Part shown: one piece after another, positions 46,837 through 54,771 of the stretch | Layout: every line of letters starts with the position of its first letter | Position numbering within the stretch: position 1 is the stretch's first letter | NCBI GenBank assembly: GCA_003141895.1 | Contig: PLNT01000016.1 | Location: 62,001 to 126,000, forward strand | Direction of reading: 5' to 3' | DNA from: Bacteroidales bacterium | GTDB taxonomy: Bacteria; Bacteroidota; Bacteroidia; Bacteroidales; VadinHA17 | Length of the DNA: 64,000 nt | The notes under the pieces: model-generated | Databases searched by the model: none | What the model was told of the DNA's origin: nothing | The model's input: only the letters and a program-made list of their open reading frames with translations | Program-made: the position numbers and the translations under genes

Positions 46837-48165
46837 ATGAATAGTCAATACGTCAATAACGTTACGGATCTAACCAATCCTGAAAAGAATGTCATTTACA
46901 ATATGACGCACGAAGAAGCCGTGAATTTAGTAAGAACAGGCAATGTTGAGGCGGTCCGTACTATCGATGGTCAGTTCTCCCTTGTGTCAGTGGAAGGAAA
47001 AACGATAAGGATGGCAAGGTCAATCGGACGTCCTATCCGCTATTTTATTGCAAAACGGCCAGCCGGGCCTGAACTGGTAATTGCCGAACGTATTGATGTA
47101 ATATACAATTACCTGAAGAAGGAAGGACTCGATCATCAGTTCCATCCTTCATATACCAGGATGGCTCCCGCACATTATATAACTAAGATCGAACTACTGG
47201 GCTGTCCCGATCCTAATCCCGTTTATAACAGGTTCTTTACTCCGGAGCGCAATAAATTTACAGGCGAAAACCCTGCAAAAATCGGTGAAAAATATATTGG
47301 AACCTTATACAATGAAATTAAAAAATGGCTTCTCTTTCGTGCTAAAACAGGTCCTATTGGAGTAACCTTTTCTGCAGGGATTGACAGCGGCTCTGTATTT
47401 CTTCTTACTTATCAAGCGCTCAGAGAACTTGGGGAGAGTCCTTCCAGATTAAAAGCTTTCACTCTTTCGATTGATGGGGACGGAGCTGATCTGCTCCAGG
47501 CCAGGAAATTTCTTGAAAGTCTTAATCTGGGCATGTTCCTTGAACCTGTTGAAGTCAGTTTTTCATCCCTGAACTGGAAAAAAGCAGTAAAAGTAGTTGA
47601 GGACTATAAAGCTCTTGATATTCAATCAGCCACTATGAATCTGTCACTTCTTGAGGGCATAAGGGCGAAATATCCCAACTGGAAATATTTAATCGACGGT
47701 GACGGAGGTGACGAAAATCTGAAAGATTATCCAATAGAGGAAAACCCTGAACTTACGATTCGGAGTGTTCTGAATAATTTAATGCTCTATCATGAAGGGT
47801 GGGGAGTTGAATCAATAAAACATTCCTTAACCTATTCCGGAGGTTTGAGCAGAGGTTATATGCGCTCTTTTGCCACTTCCGATCTGTCGGGTTTCGAGGG
47901 ATTCAGCCCTTATACCTTACCGAATGTTATCGAAATTTCAGAAGGTATCCCATACATTGACATGACAAACTGGGATCATGAGAAACTCTATGAACTTAAA
48001 GGTAAAATTGTCTCAGCCGGAGTTAAGACAGTTACCGGTCTGGAAATGCCGGTCTTTCAGAAACGAAGATTCCAGCATGGTGCAACCTCTGATCGCGACT
48101 TCAGCAGACATTTTCCTGTGAAAGAGATAGATTACCGGAAAGAGTTTCTTTCGAGCTATGAGTGA
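46837..48165 (+). CDS. Asparagine-synthase-like amidotransferase/ligase without the N-terminal Cys
   Basis: 442 residues. The N-terminal 130 residues are a shrunken Ntn-hydrolase-like domain (TIDGQFSLVSVEGKTIRMA, RPIRYFIAKRP, VIAERIDVI) but there is no Cys2, so glutamine hydrolysis should not occur there. The synthetase domain has the PP-loop SAGIDS (179-184) in GVTFSAGIDSGSVF, and DGDGGDENL and later DMTNWDHEKL. Such enzymes adenylate a carboxylate and couple it to an amine or ammonia. The 3' end overlaps the radical SAM gene by 8 bases, indicating translational coupling. True asparagine synthesis is unlikely; a substrate tied to this cluster is inferred. Confidence 0.82.
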   Translation: MNSQYVNNVTDLTNPEKNVIYNMTHEEAVNLVRTGNVEAVRTIDGQFSLVSVEGKTIRMARSIGRPIRYFIAKRPAGPELVIAERIDVIYNYLKKEGLDHQFHPSYTRMAPAHYITKIELLGCPDPNPVYNRFFTPERNKFTGENPAKIGEKYIGTLYNEIKKWLLFRAKTGPIGVTFSAGIDSGSVFLLTYQALRELGESPSRLKAFTLSIDGDGADLLQARKFLESLNLGMFLEPVEVSFSSLNWKKAVKVVEDYKALDIQSATMNLSLLEGIRAKYPNWKYLIDGDGGDENLKDYPIEENPELTIRSVLNNLMLYHEGWGVESIKHSLTYSGGLSRGYMRSFATSDLSGFEGFSPYTLPNVIEISEGIPYIDMTNWDHEKLYELKGKIVSAGVKTVTGLEMPVFQKRRFQHGATSDRDFSRHFPVKEIDYRKEFLSSYE

Positions 48166-49132
48166 AAGCTCTGACCATCTGATCGATGACAGGATGATAA
48201 TCTCACTTAGGGGTAACAAAAATTCTGTTGATCCTAAAATGCCTTATGGATGGCTGGTTGAAAAAGAACGAACCAGCTCAGGTAAAATCGAAGAGACAGG
48301 TATAATTTTTCTTACAAACCGGGAATGTCCTTTTCATTGCCTGATGTGTGATTTGTGGAAGAACACAACAGATGACACTATTGCTATTGGTGATATTCCA
48401 CGTCAGATTGAGTGGGCACTGGAAAAAATGACGTCTGTAAAACATCTGAAACTTTACAACAGCGGAAGTTTTTTTGACAAAAGAGCGATTCCTGAGGAAG
48501 ACTATCAGGAGATTGCCTTGTTGCTGAAAGGTTTTGAAACCGTTATTGTTGAAAGCCATCCAAGGCTGATCAACGAAAAATGCCTTAAATTCAGAGATAT
48601 GCTCGAACCTGAATTGCAGATCTCTATGGGTCTTGAAACTGTGCATCCTGAAATTCTAAGGAAACTTAATAAACAAATGTCTGTAGAGGACTTTGCTAAA
48701 GCGGCCAGCTTTCTTAAAAGCCAGGGAATCCCATCAAGGGCATTTATACTGCTCAGACCTCCCTGGTTGAATGAATCAGAAGGTATTTTATGGGCTGAAA
48801 GCTCGATCGACTTTGCTTTCAATGCAGGAGTGGAATGCTGCACGGTCATACCTGTGAGAGCCGGAAACGGCGCAATGGATTTCTTAATGAATAATGGAGA
48901 ATTCACACCCCCTGATATTCACTCCCTGGAAATGGTTCTGGAATATGGAATAGGCTTAAAGAAGGGGCGCGTATTTGCAGATACATGGGATCTTAGACTT
49001 TTCTCAAAATGTGAAAAATGCCTCGATAAAAGAACCAGCCGTCTTATTGAAATGAATCTGACCCAACAAATAGTTCCGGAGGTTGAATGTGAATGCACCA
49101 AGCACCAAGCACCCTGCACCAAGCAACTTTAG
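48158..49132 (+). CDS. Radical SAM enzyme
   Basis: 324 residues. The 4Fe-4S cluster motif is CPFHCLMC (Cys57, Cys61, Cys64) in IIFLTNRECPFHCLMCDLW. Barrel features follow: VKHLKLYNSGSFFD (GGE-like position), LQISMGLETVHPEILRKLNK and AFILLRPPWLNESEG, then a late cysteine set, CEKCLDKR and VECEC. It resembles small Elp3-like/TIGR01210-type radical SAM proteins and needs S-adenosylmethionine. The extreme C-terminus (CTKHQAPCTKQL) is encoded by a tandem CACCAAG word and looks like a recent extension. It overlaps the AsnB-like gene by 8 bases and the convergent truA by 4. Confidence 0.85.
   Translation: MSESSDHLIDDRMIISLRGNKNSVDPKMPYGWLVEKERTSSGKIEETGIIFLTNRECPFHCLMCDLWKNTTDDTIAIGDIPRQIEWALEKMTSVKHLKLYNSGSFFDKRAIPEEDYQEIALLLKGFETVIVESHPRLINEKCLKFRDMLEPELQISMGLETVHPEILRKLNKQMSVEDFAKAASFLKSQGIPSRAFILLRPPWLNESEGILWAESSIDFAFNAGVECCTVIPVRAGNGAMDFLMNNGEFTPPDIHSLEMVLEYGIGLKKGRVFADTWDLRLFSKCEKCLDKRTSRLIEMNLTQQIVPEVECECTKHQAPCTKQL
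49095..49127. repeat. Tandem CACCAAG word inside the 3' end of the radical SAM gene
   Basis: Four imperfect GCACCAAG/GCACCCT units make up the last codons of the gene. The same kind of word is normally intergenic in this window. Confidence 0.7.
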
Positions 49133-49987: not shown

Positions 49988-50084
49988 TAAGATTGCTTCG
50001 CTTCGCTCGCAGTGACGGTGGAGGCAAGGTAATTACATGGTCATTGCGAGGATCCCGATAAAATCGGGAGACGAAGCAATCTTA
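49988..50084. repeat. Inverted repeat element with AAGATTGCTTCG arms
   Basis: TAAGATTGCTTCG (49988-50000) and CGAAGCAATCTTA (50072-50084) are perfect 13-bp inverted arms. Inside are GCAGTGACGG, GGTCATTGCGAGG and a small CCCGAT-AAA-ATCGGG hairpin. It takes up a third of the 302-base gap after truA. Confidence 0.8.
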
Positions 50085-50207: not shown

Positions 50208-50717
50208 ATGAAAAAGAAATACATGAATCCTTATATGGCAGGTACTATGCTGGGGATAGTACTTCTACTGGCAATGTTCCTTGCGGGACGAGGATTAGGG
50301 GCAAGCGGAGGACTTAAATATTGTGTGGTATCTATTGTTGGAGCAGTAGATCGTTCTCATGCTGACAAATCGATTTATTACAGCAAGTATTTTGAAGATG
50401 GGAAGAAGCCTCTCAAGAACTGGCTTACCATTGAAATATTCGGGGTAATTGCAGGAGGATTTTTGTCCGGAGCTCTTTCTAAAAGATTAAAGTTCAAGAT
50501 TGAAAAATCACCAAATATTTCGAACACACGTCGGCTGATATTTGCATTCCTTGGTGGTGTCTTTTTTGTATACGGAGCACAGCTTGCACGCGGATGTACA
50601 AGTGGCGCAGCACTCTCGGGAATGGCTGTTCTTTCTGTTGCAGGATTTGTTACCATGATTGCAATTTTCGGTTCAGCGTACATGTTTGCATGGTTTTTCA
50701 GGAAGAACTGGATTTAG
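50208..50717 (+). CDS. YeeE/YedE-type sulfur transport protein, first half
   Basis: 169 residues with about four membrane segments and the conserved Cys motif QLARGCTSGAALSGMAVLS characteristic of YeeE/YedE (thiosulfate transporter, DUF395). Canonical YeeE is one chain of about 350 residues; here the function is divided between this gene and the one at 50782. Likely imports thiosulfate or another reduced sulfur species across the inner membrane. It stands at the head of the plus-strand sulfur operon behind a good promoter. The spacing to the next gene (64 bases) is taken up by tandem words. Confidence 0.85.
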   Translation: MKKKYMNPYMAGTMLGIVLLLAMFLAGRGLGASGGLKYCVVSIVGAVDRSHADKSIYYSKYFEDGKKPLKNWLTIEIFGVIAGGFLSGALSKRLKFKIEKSPNISNTRRLIFAFLGGVFFVYGAQLARGCTSGAALSGMAVLSVAGFVTMIAIFGSAYMFAWFFRKNWI

Positions 50718-50718
50718 G

Positions 50719-50779
50719 CAAAGAGCTCAGGGCACAGGGCTCAGAGGCAAATGTAAAACGATAAACGATAAACGATAAA
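50719..50779. repeat. CAGGGCTCAGAG and CGATAAA tandem words
   Basis: AGAGCTCAGGGCACAGGGCT followed by three CGATAAA units that end 2 bases before the ATG at 50782. Related CTGTGCCCTGTG occurs at 58653-58674. Confidence 0.7.
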
Positions 50780-50781
50780 AT

Positions 50782-51384
50782 ATGGGACCAATATCATCAC
50801 TAATATCAATGCCTGAATGGCTGGATTTGCTTATCGCTCTTCTGATAGGCGTGGGTTTCGGGTTCGCACTGGAACAGGCAGGATTCTCTTCAAGCAGAAA
50901 GCTTGCAGGTATGTTTTATGGTTATGATGCCACAGTAATAAAGGTATTTTTCACGGCAGCAATTGTTGCACTTGTAGGATCACAACTATTAAGCTACTTT
51001 GGTTTGCTTAATCTAAATATGGTTTTTGTAAATGAGTATTATGTTGCTGCATCAATAATAGGCGGAATAATTATGGGTGCAGGTTTTATTATGGGTGGGT
51101 TTTGCCCGGGAACCGGGTTATGTGCTCTTTCAATAGGAAAAATAGACGCAATGATCTTTTTCCTTGGCGGTTTAACAGGAGCATTCCTGTTCGCAGAAAC
51201 ATATCCTTCAATTCAGAAACTTGCCAATGGATACTATAAAGGTCCTGTTAAAATAAATGAGGTAATGGGTATTTCTCCAGGGCTCTTCACTTTTCTTTTA
51301 ATAGCAGCAGCTGTTGTGATGTTCTGGATTGCAGAACTTGCAGAAAAGAGATTCGCCCGGCCTGATATAACAAATGAAATTTAA
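50782..51384 (+). CDS. YeeE/YedE-type sulfur transport protein, second half
   Basis: 200 residues with five membrane segments and the second conserved motif, MGGFCPGTGLCALSIGKIDAM, including the Cys that in YeeE takes part in thiosulfate passage; also GFALEQAGFSSSRKLAGMFYG. It pairs with the 169-residue protein upstream to form a complete carrier. A rhodanese-like gene follows 11 bases later, which supports sulfur import and delivery. Confidence 0.87.
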   Translation: MGPISSLISMPEWLDLLIALLIGVGFGFALEQAGFSSSRKLAGMFYGYDATVIKVFFTAAIVALVGSQLLSYFGLLNLNMVFVNEYYVAASIIGGIIMGAGFIMGGFCPGTGLCALSIGKIDAMIFFLGGLTGAFLFAETYPSIQKLANGYYKGPVKINEVMGISPGLFTFLLIAAAVVMFWIAELAEKRFARPDITNEI

Positions 51385-51395
51385 AAAATAATAAG

Positions 51396-52007
51396 ATGAA
51401 TACCAGGCAAAAATTTTCGGCTGGGCTTTTAATTATCGGGTTCATACTTGCCCTATTGCCACTTTCAGGAAGCAGATCTTTTACTGTCAGACCACAAAAA
51501 TTACTCGGTGAAGTTCTGGATAGCAACACCTGGTTTACCGTTGATCAGGTAGCAAGATTTATCGTTACAGAGGATAGTTCTGTTCAAATTATTGACCTCA
51601 GAACCCCTGAAGAATTTAAGACCGTAAATATTCCGGGTTCAATAAATCTTCCTTACAACAAATTTCTCGATATAGATCCGGCCAGACTATTGAGTAACGG
51701 AAAAACCAAAAATATTTTCTATTCGAATGGTGATTTTGATTCAAATTTTGCACTTGCAATTGCCAGGGGTCTCAATCTTAAAAACACTTTCGTCATGAAA
51801 GGTGGTTTGAATGAGTGGTTCAACACAGTGATGAACAGCACATTTACCGGGGAGAGGATCTCTGCAAGGGAAAATGCACTTTTTGAAACCAGGACAAGGG
51901 CAAAAAAGATGTTTTCAGAAATGAATAGCATGCCCGACAGCCTGAAATTGAAATTCATTCAATCTACACATCTTGCCGCAAAAAAACTTGATGGAGGCTG
52001 TGAATAG
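51396..52007 (+). CDS. Membrane-anchored rhodanese-like protein lacking the catalytic Cys
   Basis: 203 residues. One N-terminal membrane helix (about 8-25) is followed by a rhodanese domain (about 45-150): VQIIDLRTPEEFKTVNIPGS with the CH2A-type motif, NLPYN, and the active-site loop region KTKNIFYSNGDFDSNFALAI where Ser stands in place of the catalytic Cys. The C-terminal tail ends GGCE, leaving one Cys outside the fold that might act instead. A binding or carrier role is more likely than sulfur transfer. It is operonic with the YeeE halves. Confidence 0.75.
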   Translation: MNTRQKFSAGLLIIGFILALLPLSGSRSFTVRPQKLLGEVLDSNTWFTVDQVARFIVTEDSSVQIIDLRTPEEFKTVNIPGSINLPYNKFLDIDPARLLSNGKTKNIFYSNGDFDSNFALAIARGLNLKNTFVMKGGLNEWFNTVMNSTFTGERISARENALFETRTRAKKMFSEMNSMPDSLKLKFIQSTHLAAKKLDGGCE

Positions 52008-52067
52008 TCAATTACGAATTACGAATTAAATATTAGAATAGATATAAGCGATCAGATATCAGGAATC

Positions 52068-52550
52068 ATGAATATTAAATTGGTCAACATGGTAAAAAAA
52101 AACAGAGAAGTAATTGTTATTGTTCTGATATTACTGCTACTTATTCTGTTCAGGGAAACTGGTAAGAATCATTTTAAAAGTGACGCCAAAAAATGGGCTG
52201 AATCATCAATAAATAAATCAGATATAATTATCACTGAAAAACTGGGATTATCTGACGGAAAAAATCTCCTGATAAATCTTGATAAAGATACCAGCAGACT
52301 GAAAAAGAATAACTCAGAATTATTAAACATATCACCTGACTCAATACTCAGTAAAAAATACATTAATTCTATAATGAAACATGATGGGCCTGTGCTCCTC
52401 TTTTCTACGAATCCGGGAGTTTCAGCAAGGGTATGGATGCTTCTAAGTCAGATGGGCAGGAAAAAATTATATATCCTATCAGATAAGGCTGACGATGAGG
52501 TTCCGAAGTATAAATTCAAACCTGATAGTGTACCAGATAAGAATCTGTGA
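52068..52550 (+). CDS. Membrane-anchored, degenerate rhodanese-like protein
   Basis: 160 residues. A single membrane helix (about 15-28, VIVIVLILLLLILF) is followed by a periplasmic part whose second half, MKHDGPVLLFSTNPGVSARV then WMLLSQMGRKKLYILSDKAD, follows the rhodanese pattern of strand, active-site loop, helix and next strand. The loop begins FSTNPG, so Ser occupies the Cys position. The first half of a rhodanese fold is not clear. It is the last gene of the plus-strand sulfur operon. My assignment is moderate. Confidence 0.55.
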   Translation: MNIKLVNMVKKNREVIVIVLILLLLILFRETGKNHFKSDAKKWAESSINKSDIIITEKLGLSDGKNLLINLDKDTSRLKKNNSELLNISPDSILSKKYINSIMKHDGPVLLFSTNPGVSARVWMLLSQMGRKKLYILSDKADDEVPKYKFKPDSVPDKNL

Positions 52551-52584
52551 TTATCTAAACACTTAAGTTGCCGTCGGCGGCAAT

Positions 52585-52618
52585 AAAAAAACCGGTCCAG
52601 CATAAAATGCCGGACCGG
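52585..52618 (-). terminator. Intrinsic terminator after the double-rhodanese gene
   Basis: CCGGTCCAGCAT (52592-52603) and ATGCCGGACCGG (52607-52618) form a 12-bp stem with one mismatch and an AAA loop. The plus-strand A-run at 52585-52591 is a T-run after the hairpin on the minus strand. It is 28 bases after that gene's stop codon, and may also slow the opposing plus-strand transcript. Confidence 0.85.
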
Positions 52619-52646
52619 AACCCAAAAGTCTCAAAATAAATAGAGT

Positions 52647-53687
52647 TTATTTTACAGTTTCAAAATCATTAACCTCAGCTGTGGTAAATGGAAGCCATGA
52701 TAATGCAGTTCTCTGCTTAACCATTTTATCATACATAAATCCATTGTTGCCATATTTCAGAGTATGTGCATCATATCCAAAAAACCTCAGATAGGCAGTT
52801 GCAAAAGCGGAATTATGCCCCGTAGCACAATAAACGACTACCGGTTTATTTACAGGAATCGAACCCATCTCCTCAGGATATCCCAGAGTACCTTCCGGTT
52901 TGTATCTTACAGCTCCGGGCACATGCCCGTCTTCGTATTTATCTTTCCTGTCCAGATTAATCACATAATATTTCTGTGGATCACTGAAAACATCAGCTGC
53001 AGTTATAAGGATATTATCAGCACCTTCTTTAAATAACTCATGGAATCTTGCCGCTCCTATTTCAGTACCTGTCTGTAATCCTGTTTTAAGCTCAGGCAGC
53101 ACAAGATCTGTTGGTCTCTCATTTCCCTTGTTCTCAAGATTCGATTCGTATTTCCCTGATACTCCTTTAAGCCACGACTCCTGAGCAAAATTTTTATTCC
53201 AGGCACTCATTCCCCATCTCATTGAATATACATTTCCGTATCCCATTAATCTTAAGAGGCATGTTGTGTAACTTGATATCTGGCCATCATCACTCACCAT
53301 AATAATCTTGTCAAATTCAAATGGTTTAATACCCGTTTCGAAGTAGGCCGGGATGTCTTCAAATTTTTTATTCACAGCTCCCTTAATATGCCCTTCGGAG
53401 AATTGCTTCTGAGGTCTCATATCGACGATCAGAATGTTTTTGCCCAGACTTTCTTTTACTATTGAGGCTTTAATCAGAGATGGATATGCTTTACTATTCA
53501 CATAATCACCGTTCTCTTTAAGGTCTTTCAGCAAAAGAGCAGTTTCATTTCCAATAGTAACTGACTTAGCCTTAACAACTTCGCTAACTACTTCGGGTTT
53601 GCTCTCCTGTTTTTTCCCTTTACAACCTGATAATGAAAAGAAGCAAAGAAGAATTAAAAAGAAAAATAAACAATATATTCTTTTCAT
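52647..53687 (-). CDS. Double-rhodanese sulfurtransferase lipoprotein
   Basis: 346 residues. A lipobox is at LSGCKGK (Cys about 22). Two rhodanese domains follow. In the first (about 75-175), VDMRPQKQFSEGHIKGAV is kept but the loop reads IIMVSDDGQISS, without Cys. In the second (about 215-330), YVINLDRKDKYEDGHVPGAV and VVVYCATGHNSAFATAYLR carry the catalytic Cys. This is the thiosulfate-sulfurtransferase plan of inactive plus active domain. Anchored to a membrane, it faces the periplasm. It is divergent to nothing but convergent with the YeeE operon, and 7 bases downstream of a lipoprotein gene. Confidence 0.85.
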   Translation of the reverse strand: MKRIYCLFFFLILLCFFSLSGCKGKKQESKPEVVSEVVKAKSVTIGNETALLLKDLKENGDYVNSKAYPSLIKASIVKESLGKNILIVDMRPQKQFSEGHIKGAVNKKFEDIPAYFETGIKPFEFDKIIMVSDDGQISSYTTCLLRLMGYGNVYSMRWGMSAWNKNFAQESWLKGVSGKYESNLENKGNERPTDLVLPELKTGLQTGTEIGAARFHELFKEGADNILITAADVFSDPQKYYVINLDRKDKYEDGHVPGAVRYKPEGTLGYPEEMGSIPVNKPVVVYCATGHNSAFATAYLRFFGYDAHTLKYGNNGFMYDKMVKQRTALSWLPFTTAEVNDFETVK

Positions 53688-53694
53688 AAAAACA

Positions 53695-54771
53695 CTATTT
53701 CAGAGATGCTAATTTAACAGGATTGTTATCCTTGTCGAATGTTAGTGTTTCAATACGGTTTCCAATTTCATCGTATTTGTATGCTGTAATTGCAACACCA
53801 TTGTCAGCGCTGTTAATCAAATTCCCATCTTTATCCATATTTCTGGTCTCAATAAGCGCTCCATGACTATCGTATTTAGACTGAGAAAAAGGAATCAACT
53901 TCCCTCCAACAGGTTCATTATCCTGATCGTACATCCTGACCTCGGTTGAATAGCCATTTTCATCGTATTTGCTTATCCGTTTTGACCATCCCCAGTAGAG
54001 ATTTGACATCTGGCCTGTCACGTTAAAAACAGAGAAAGTTTCCAGATCACCTGCCGCATTTGGAGAAAATACAAAATAAGATACTCCGATATCACCACAG
54101 TTTTCTGCTGTGCAGTTATAGAGGGTATCGGCTTTGAAATTTGCCATTCTTACCGGGTATCCTTTGTCGTTGTAAGTAAAACGTAATTCATAAAATGGAC
54201 AGAACGGATTCATAACTGTTTCTTCTCCTTTAAGATTATAACGCAGTTCCCTGACCATACCATCAGGAAGTTTATTCCAGACCCATGAATGTATCCTGTT
54301 CCTGTTTTCGACCATCGATCCGTCTTTACCGAGATTCATTAATCCCACGCGATTTCCTTCAGTGTCAAGGGCATATTCGGAGGCGAACACTCCCCCGGCT
54401 TCTATAGGTTGATTATTTTTATCGAAATAATGCCTGGTTTGCTTCCTGTCAGTATATTCATATGTAATTTTAGCGGCTCCCTGCAATGAAGAATAATCAA
54501 GAAGTACATTATTCCTTACATATTCAACAGATAAAAGCTTTCCGGAATTATCATACGTAAATTTATAGGCATTAATAGTTTTTGCCTGATCAGAGGTAAT
54601 GGGATGAATTCCTTTTTCAATGTCATATGGTGTTTCATTGAATAAAAGGTTCCTGTAATACTCAACACCTGTATGCATATTTTTATTTGTGGTCTTTCCG
54701 GTACAGGAAATCATAACTATTCCAGCAACAATTGCCACTAATAGCGGAAAAATAAGTTTGTTTAATTTCAT
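53695..54771 (-). CDS. Lipoprotein with YD/RHS-like repeats
   Basis: 358 residues. A lipobox is at MISCTGK (Cys about 23). The mature chain has irregular repeats of the type YKFTYDNSGKLLSVEYVRNN, ITYEYTDRKQTRHYFDKNNQ, SKYDSHGALIETRNMDKDGN and YKYDEIGNRIETLTFDKDNN, like short YD repeats but with no RHS core or toxin tip. The strands would wrap as a beta solenoid or shell. Function unknown. It precedes the double-rhodanese gene by 7 bases, so they are co-transcribed and it may serve as its surface partner. Confidence 0.7.
   Translation of the reverse strand: MKLNKLIFPLLVAIVAGIVMISCTGKTTNKNMHTGVEYYRNLLFNETPYDIEKGIHPITSDQAKTINAYKFTYDNSGKLLSVEYVRNNVLLDYSSLQGAAKITYEYTDRKQTRHYFDKNNQPIEAGGVFASEYALDTEGNRVGLMNLGKDGSMVENRNRIHSWVWNKLPDGMVRELRYNLKGEETVMNPFCPFYELRFTYNDKGYPVRMANFKADTLYNCTAENCGDIGVSYFVFSPNAAGDLETFSVFNVTGQMSNLYWGWSKRISKYDENGYSTEVRMYDQDNEPVGGKLIPFSQSKYDSHGALIETRNMDKDGNLINSADNGVAITAYKYDEIGNRIETLTFDKDNNPVKLASLK

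Follow-up and report, generated by a model that had tools for sequence, protein, structure and literature searches.

A rhodanese-fold protein with a conserved C-terminal cysteine beside split YeeE genes in Bacteroidota: a possible SoxY-like sulfur carrier

Sulfur carriers and YeeE-type transporters most like the locus

Sud of Wolinella is a periplasmic rhodanese with a single Cys (PDB 1qxn), a polysulfide sulfurtransferase and carrier that delivers to Psr. In SoxY, the Cys that binds the sulfur substrate lies in a C-terminal GGCGG sequence, as described in passages of PMC6067878 and PMC5336275. The protein considered here, R1, recalls both. It is encoded in a 64,000-nucleotide stretch of DNA from a Bacteroidales bacterium of the VadinHA17 lineage (assembly GCA_003141895.1, contig PLNT01000016.1, positions 62,001 to 126,000), referred to below as the window. 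Five genes between positions 50208 and 53687 encode two halves of a YeeE-type transporter (YA and YB), the rhodanese-fold protein R1, a shortened rhodanese-like protein (R2) and a double rhodanese (DR). R1 has Ser at the position of the catalytic Cys and carries a conserved Cys at its extreme C-terminus, on an arm that may present sulfur to the transporter.

The abstract of PMC11582611 calls sulfur import poorly understood. Passages of the same paper describe split halves, PmpA and PmpB, and call it conceivable that in SoxT, a relative of YeeE, sulfur passes from the SoxY Cys along the cysteines of the channel. They also place the Hyphomicrobium pmpAB genes near a gene for a Sox(YZ) fusion and report no evidence for a role in sulfur oxidation. 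Another arrangement, the YTD cluster, comprises YeeE/YedE, TusA, DsrE and hypothetical proteins and occurs mainly in Desulfobacterota and Nitrospirota, according to passages of PMC12998232 and PMC13047784. As judged from titles, abstracts and passages, with thin coverage of subscription journals, the literature searched holds no recognisable description of a GGC-tailed rhodanese beside YeeE.

YA (50208..50717, plus strand) matches positions 174-308 of the PF04143 profile, its C-terminal half (E 3.7e-21), and YB (50782..51384, plus strand) matches positions 10-158, the N-terminal half (E 1.3e-16). The two YeeE halves noted earlier from the letters alone are therefore real, with the C half preceding the N half, and their distribution over two proteins is that of a split YeeE/YedE (PmpA/PmpB). 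YA and YB thus correspond to the two halves of the transporters of the YeeE/TsuA-YeeD, SoxT and PmpA/PmpB systems. They differ from TsuA in that the partner there is the TusA-like YeeD, whereas here the neighbour is a rhodanese fold with a GGC arm and the halves stand in C-then-N order. The YTD cluster likewise places a YeeE-type transporter gene beside sulfur-carrier genes, but the partners there are TusA and DsrE-like proteins. The Cys of YA lies in ARGCTSG and that of YB in GGFCPGT; these channel-type cysteines are invariant in the set from the order (ARGC in 60/60 aligned YA, GGFC in 59/59 aligned YB). By the correspondence given in passages of PMC11582611, their counterparts in S. thermophila TsuA would be Cys91 and Cys293.

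Loop serine and C-terminal cysteine of R1

A sequence-only reading of the locus had claimed that three of its four rhodanese-like modules have Ser in place of the catalytic Cys, and all four loops read as it said: FYSNGD in R1, FSTNPG in R2, and MVSDDG (domain 1) and VYCATG (domain 2) in DR. Taking the two YeeE halves into account, it had further proposed a relay in which inactive modules bind or present sulfur species and one module does the chemistry. The observation was right and the relay idea partly right, the decisive feature of R1 lying not in the loop but at the C-terminus.

R1 (51396..52007, plus strand) consists of an N-terminal membrane helix, a rhodanese-fold domain at about residues 33-147 and a disordered tail that ends in GGCE. 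The fold is well established. An AlphaFold2 model made with 45 relatives has a mean predicted local distance difference test score (pLDDT) of 82.4, with a helix at residues 3-20, a confident rhodanese domain and a tail (residues 187-201) that falls below 50, and its residues 39-147 superpose best on 3tp9 (VIA-align; Z 15.7, root-mean-square deviation 1.7 over 101 residues). Foldseek also matches rhodanese-type structures. The PF00581 profile scores 47.7 bits with R1 and 91.2 bits, over two stretches, with DR (cut-off 22.2). The rhodanese fold is thus present in R1 and the family profile in R1 and DR. A catalytic loop Cys is found in DR domain 2 and is missing from R1 and R2, and R1 is for this reason not classed as a rhodanese enzyme. 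Its loop residue is Ser110 (codon 51723..51725), and the single Cys of the window R1 stands two codons ahead of the stop, in a tail KKLDGGCE encoded at 51981..52004 (Cys codon 51999-52001).

Both features extend far beyond the window. R1-type matches occur in 80/146 relatives (E 1e-6) and in 47/296 genomes of a phylum sample (E 1e-15), a distribution that counts against a universal role. Loci were taken from a subset of the places listed among the relatives, with three window-type genomes (G008, G017, G058) checked afterwards, and from 30 of the 50 places listed in the phylum sample, with a cut-off of about 80 bits for R1. In the 21 close loci (the window and 20 others), the loop residue is Ser in 20 and Ala in one, and it is Ser in 3/3 of the added genomes. 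Over all 90 rows of the order and phylum samples, which include one second copy of the window, it is S in 69, G in 10, A in eight, C in two and T in one. The Cys is last or penultimate in 88/90, the exceptions being L149, in which the end of the contig cuts the gene, and L105. G200, G201 and C202 are invariant in all 39 aligned R1-type sequences, with identities to R1 as low as 22%.

Alignment of homologues thus shows that the Ser is kept, in R1 as in the R2 of the window's clade (see below). Isolated decay or misassembly in the window genome was one alternative, and R2 lends this idea some colour: two residues of the R1 core motif, D and R, are missing from it, and it contains no Cys at all. 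However, the same genes, order and residues recur in the 21 close loci of different genomes and the traits of R1 are phylum-wide, which refutes decay for R1 and leaves the idea as a whole hardly credible.

The tail was also found where neither it nor the loop could influence the search. A sample of named loci was gathered with a query made of two stretches that contain neither feature; of 183 relatives, 80 genome contigs were kept, which may overlap in genomes with the first sample. The loop residue is Ser in 79/80, with one gap, and Cys in 0/80; the tail is present in 79/80, with L273 as the exception. These loci hold 499 other open reading frames (ORFs) with 150 residues or more; 14 of them have Cys within the last two residues and one has G.?C. 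In 75/80 named loci, R1 contains no Cys besides that of the tail, a count that leaves out L273, which has a single Cys but no tail. When all samples are pooled, it is present in 156/159 R1 proteins that are distinct over their last 150 residues, as GGC (110), GGCx (31), EGC (14) or DGC (1). Over the 20 residues ahead of it, the net charge averages +4.8, with values between 0 and +12.

In 30 control loci there are 13 rhodanese-type proteins outside the R1/R2/DR family, counting L312 (DR score 101) as outside; none of the 13 has a GGC tail, and one (L320) has a penultimate Cys. Of the 17 family rows, two of which (L323 and L332) are one gene, 14 have the tail, and those without are the window DR, L322 and L336. 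In one genome (G142), DR paralogues outside the main operon (L310 and L326) also end in GGC. A genome-wide tail tag of this type was rejected for six genomes: among their frames longer than 60 codons, GGC[EQ] followed by a stop occurs only in the genes of this operon, with the single exception of a 139-codon frame in G070.

The earlier description of two free-standing Cys-less proteins therefore holds for R2, which has no Cys, and not for R1, which, with its conserved tail Cys, is not a thiol-free protein. The likeness of R1 to SoxY lies in a Cys on a glycine-flanked, flexible C-terminal arm, of the form (G/E/D)GC in the pooled proteins, in a sulfur-pathway setting. The scaffold differs from that of SoxY, combining a membrane helix with a rhodanese fold. 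The tail itself differs as well, in that a basic stretch usually precedes it and the trailing GG of SoxY is absent. R1 has no match to the SoxY family (PF13501) at E up to 1 and, having no SoxY domain, is not a SoxY, although its mode of action may be similar. The idea that the window genome itself encodes a Sox carrier of the SoxY type was discarded, with none at E 0.001.

Arms shared within operons, and the R2 and DR proteins

Beyond the window's clade, the arm is not confined to R1 but is also found on R2 (20/22) and DR (10/14), and it is specific to the operon. All three proteins of L091 carry the arm KKKEVEGGCG; R1, R2 and DR of L096 share HKKKKQAAAGGCE and those of L097 share VPVKKKQVGGGCE, while the likeness is looser in L106 and L108. 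Over the ten residues ahead of GGC, different genes of one operon are 63% identical (21 operons, 37 pairs), as against 20% for different genes (752 pairs) and 21% for the same gene (436 pairs) between operons. None of 10,000 permutations reached the identity seen within operons. Rows without GGC (the window's clade, L102, L105, R2 of L094 and DR of L098) were left out of this comparison, which does include pairs of nearly the same sequence (L147/L148 and L103/L107, for example). The bodies of R1 and R2 show only slight pairing, with a mean score of 123 within operons and 114 between them.

Recent gene conversion as the sole source of the common tails was rejected. Identical tail residues use the same codon in 188/345 cases (0.545), close to the 0.477 expected from codon usage, so that the tails as a whole are not recent copies. 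Older gene conversion is possible. The simplest reading of these sequences is that the tails co-evolve with a common partner.

R2 (52068..52550, plus strand) is a membrane-anchored, shortened and probably degenerate rhodanese-like protein. Neither Pfam nor NCBIfam has a family that matches it at E up to 1, but its profile aligns with that of R1 with an hhalign probability of 98.1 (E 7.8e-14), so that a rhodanese relationship first suggested from its loop finds support at the profile level and little in structure. The single-sequence model is poor (pLDDT 65.9): Foldseek gives nothing at E 0.001, and its top rows, which are rhodaneses, have E values no better than 0.05. Nor does the R2 profile match anything in the PDB significantly. 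R2 is very probably derived from a rhodanese; given the weak model, a rhodanese fold is probable. Its loop position (Ser113, codon 52404-52406) is Ser in 21/21 close loci and in 3/3 of the added window-type genomes, and S, G, A, Y, H or C beyond the window's clade. With both thiol and tail lost, R2 of the window's clade looks degenerate.

DR (52647..53687, minus strand) is a double rhodanese whose N-terminus, LSGC, looks by eye like a lipobox. The Cys of domain 2 is present in 21/21 close loci, whereas domain 1 has Ser in 12, Asn in one and Cys in eight; of the three added genomes, one has Ser and two have Cys in domain 1. Among 35 DR proteins, the domain 1 residue is Cys 20 times, Ser 12 times, Asp twice and Asn once, and that of domain 2 is Cys in all 35. 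The domain 1 labels require six changes on the DR tree, and a conserved Ser in this domain as a matter of design was therefore rejected. In two contigs (G096:C158 and G102:C489), a DR-type protein and a match to octaheme tetrathionate reductase are no more than about 1 kb apart.

The variability of the DR domain 1 Ser, set against the retention of Ser in R1 and in the R2 of the window's clade, bears on the relay as first proposed, in which Ser-type modules would need no thiol to bind or present sulfur species, the chemistry falling to DR domain 2. The retained Ser and the invariant Cys of DR domain 2 fit this idea. However, R1 has kept a thiol in its tail, and G or A frequently takes the loop position in the phylum sample, as might be expected of a loop without a strict function. 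Together with the inconstant domain 1, this makes a thiol-free presenter very unlikely.

The window's clade departs from the rest in three respects. DR is convergent in 21/21 of its loci; the GGC arm is missing from R2 (0/21) and DR (0/21), and R1 alone keeps it; and an extra Cys of YA, within KYCVVS, is present in all 20 readable loci of the clade and in L102 but in 0/38 other loci. The extra YA Cys and the loss of the GGC arm from R2 and DR thus go together, locus by locus. These traits probably arose together once.

Genetic setting and a possible sulfur route

The linkage of R1 to YeeE is well established. YA, YB and R1 are complete in 71/80 named loci and partial in nine, and the pooled R1 proteins include 15 fusions of YB to R1, not counting the over-long ORFs L158 and L179; 14 of the 15 keep the tail. 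Gene order, fusions and operon contexts fit a relay with the YeeE halves as first envisaged, in which the part that falls away is R1 as an inactive, thiol-free presenter.

A Cys at the end of a tail is capable of forming mixed disulfides. It might therefore have a structural or redox role, in a disulfide with YA, YB or another R1, in metal binding or in redox sensing, and carry no sulfur; in the window's clade, the extra Cys of YA could pair with it. Outside that clade, YA has no extra Cys, and the tail Cys is mostly the only one in R1, which leaves no constant disulfide partner except the channel cysteines. The sulfur-reductase contexts described next favour sulfur chemistry. Such a role is rather improbable, if less so than thiol-free presentation.

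In 65/80 named loci, the first ORF upstream that reaches 130 residues falls into a single cluster, of which the L209 member is NrfD. A profile of this cluster finds matches in 34/40 non-window-type loci (L091-L110 and L131-L150), in none of L111-L130 and not in the window. In 14/20 wide regions, ORFs of 735-776 residues and 177-184 residues and an NrfD-type ORF, the sizes of a PhsA-like protein, an iron-sulfur protein and NrfD, lie ahead of YA; one of these regions (L293) stops inside the NrfD gene and is continued by L092. Part of these sets was tested by family. In L289, the large ORF is PhsA-like at 454 bits (curated cut-off 694), the next is of ferredoxin type and the third is NrfD-like; the large ORF of L301 is a molybdopterin enzyme; and NrfD is identified in L209 and L289. 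The others were judged by ORF size and order. Five wide regions (L294, L295, L296, L298 and L302) have another arrangement, in which an octaheme tetrathionate reductase family protein, above cut-off, adjoins the cluster in L295, L298 and L302, with cytochrome b561 also in L295 and L298; Pfam gives nothing for the small ORF of L302, and size was the criterion for L294 and L296. The remaining region, L307, is window-type. In 13 named loci, R1 is followed by a member of an ORF cluster represented in L209 (4652-5236) by a MobA-like nucleoside triphosphate transferase, which fits a molybdopterin enzyme upstream. In six named loci, the ORF that comes next after R1 belongs to a cluster represented in L219 (4728-5129) by a 133-residue protein without a Pfam match.

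These neighbours give substance to a different destination for the arm. It could feed a respiratory reductase, PhsA/PsrA-like or octaheme tetrathionate, in the manner of Sud, with YeeE only clearing or importing the products. The likeness to Sud is that of a rhodanese-related carrier linked with polysulfide-reductase-type operons, here by genetic linkage alone; R1 differs in having no loop Cys, in having a tail Cys and in its link to the YeeE halves. At thresholds that are strict for PhsA, and in draft assemblies, no PhsA-like protein (E 1e-120), no SoxY (E 0.001) and no octaheme reductase (E 1e-20) was found in the window genome or in G015 and G026, whose sole R1 is window-type. Genomes with only window-type R1 (G000, G015 and G026) and neither reductase speak against this destination, as do the YB-R1 fusions, which bind R1 to YeeE. 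YA-YB-R1 looks like the constant unit and the reductases like an option, since the reductases vary or are missing while the trio persists. A reductase as the true recipient is thus unlikely, though it is the strongest of the alternatives.

The reading preferred here is that R1 is a membrane-anchored, periplasmic and catalytically dead rhodanese scaffold whose thiol sits on a SoxY-like GGC arm and hands sulfur to YA and YB; its chances are about even. The anatomy behind it (fold, lost loop Cys, tail Cys, shared arms, linkage and fusions) is well documented, and the chemistry is inferred. The arm Cys would be loaded with sulfur as a persulfide or thiosulfonate. This sulfur would probably come from DR domain 2, through its active Cys, or from thiosulfate or polysulfide freed by a neighbouring reductase, where there is one. 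The flexible basic arm would then present the sulfur to the YA/YB half-pair, the conserved cysteines of which would pass it on or admit it into the cytoplasm, and the Ser-type rhodanese domain would serve as the docking scaffold. A periplasmic location is suggested by the short positive N-terminus of R1 (in 75 proteins, a mean net charge of +1.6 ahead of the helix and +0.6 in the 15 residues after it) and by the lipobox-like start of DR.

Several points weigh against this scheme. The R2 and DR of the window have no arm, so the shared-arm pattern is not general. What adjoins in 14/20 wide regions is a reductase-type gene set and not YeeE alone, and the arm could therefore serve the reductase. 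The basis for the topology of R1, a short positive N-terminus, is weak. The passages of PMC11582611 doubt direct transfer from Cys to Cys on account of the spacing of the channel cysteines. Finally, what characterised YeeE requires is YeeD (PMC11073785), which is cytoplasmic (PMC11582611) and no periplasmic carrier.

Other features of the window lie around the locus. A terminator-like hairpin of 12 pairs at 52592..52618 (in the minus-strand listing, with its strand given as undefined) stands between the convergent R2 and DR genes; the region has two terminator-like sites compared with an average of 3.0 in shuffled sequences, which makes the hairpin weak by itself. Upstream of YA, a 13-base sequence occurs in inverted copies (49988-50000, minus strand; 50072-50084, plus strand) with the look of a dispersed repeat, and the second copy ends just beyond a 43-base stretch with inverted ends (50041-50083). 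Beside DR, 53695-54771 on the minus strand encodes a protein that looks by eye like a lipoprotein, with YD-repeat and weak RHS/DUF4595 matches. Farther upstream, 46837-49132 encodes, as judged by eye only, tandem asparagine-synthase-like and radical S-adenosylmethionine-like (CxxxCxxC) proteins.

If the preferred reading is right, split YeeE transporters of Bacteroidota would have dedicated carriers in the GGC-tailed rhodanese folds, and as many as three proteins of an operon would bear one operon-specific arm that a common partner reads. This would be a second, independently evolved periplasmic sulfur-carrier arm, a proposition that stands in the balance. For the presentation of sulfur from outside to YeeE-type transporters, the near-universal tail Cys provides a handle of a single residue. 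The reading would also mean that a protein can keep its parent fold and yet shift a reactive Cys from a loop onto a flexible tail, and that rhodaneses without a loop Cys should not be read as dead.

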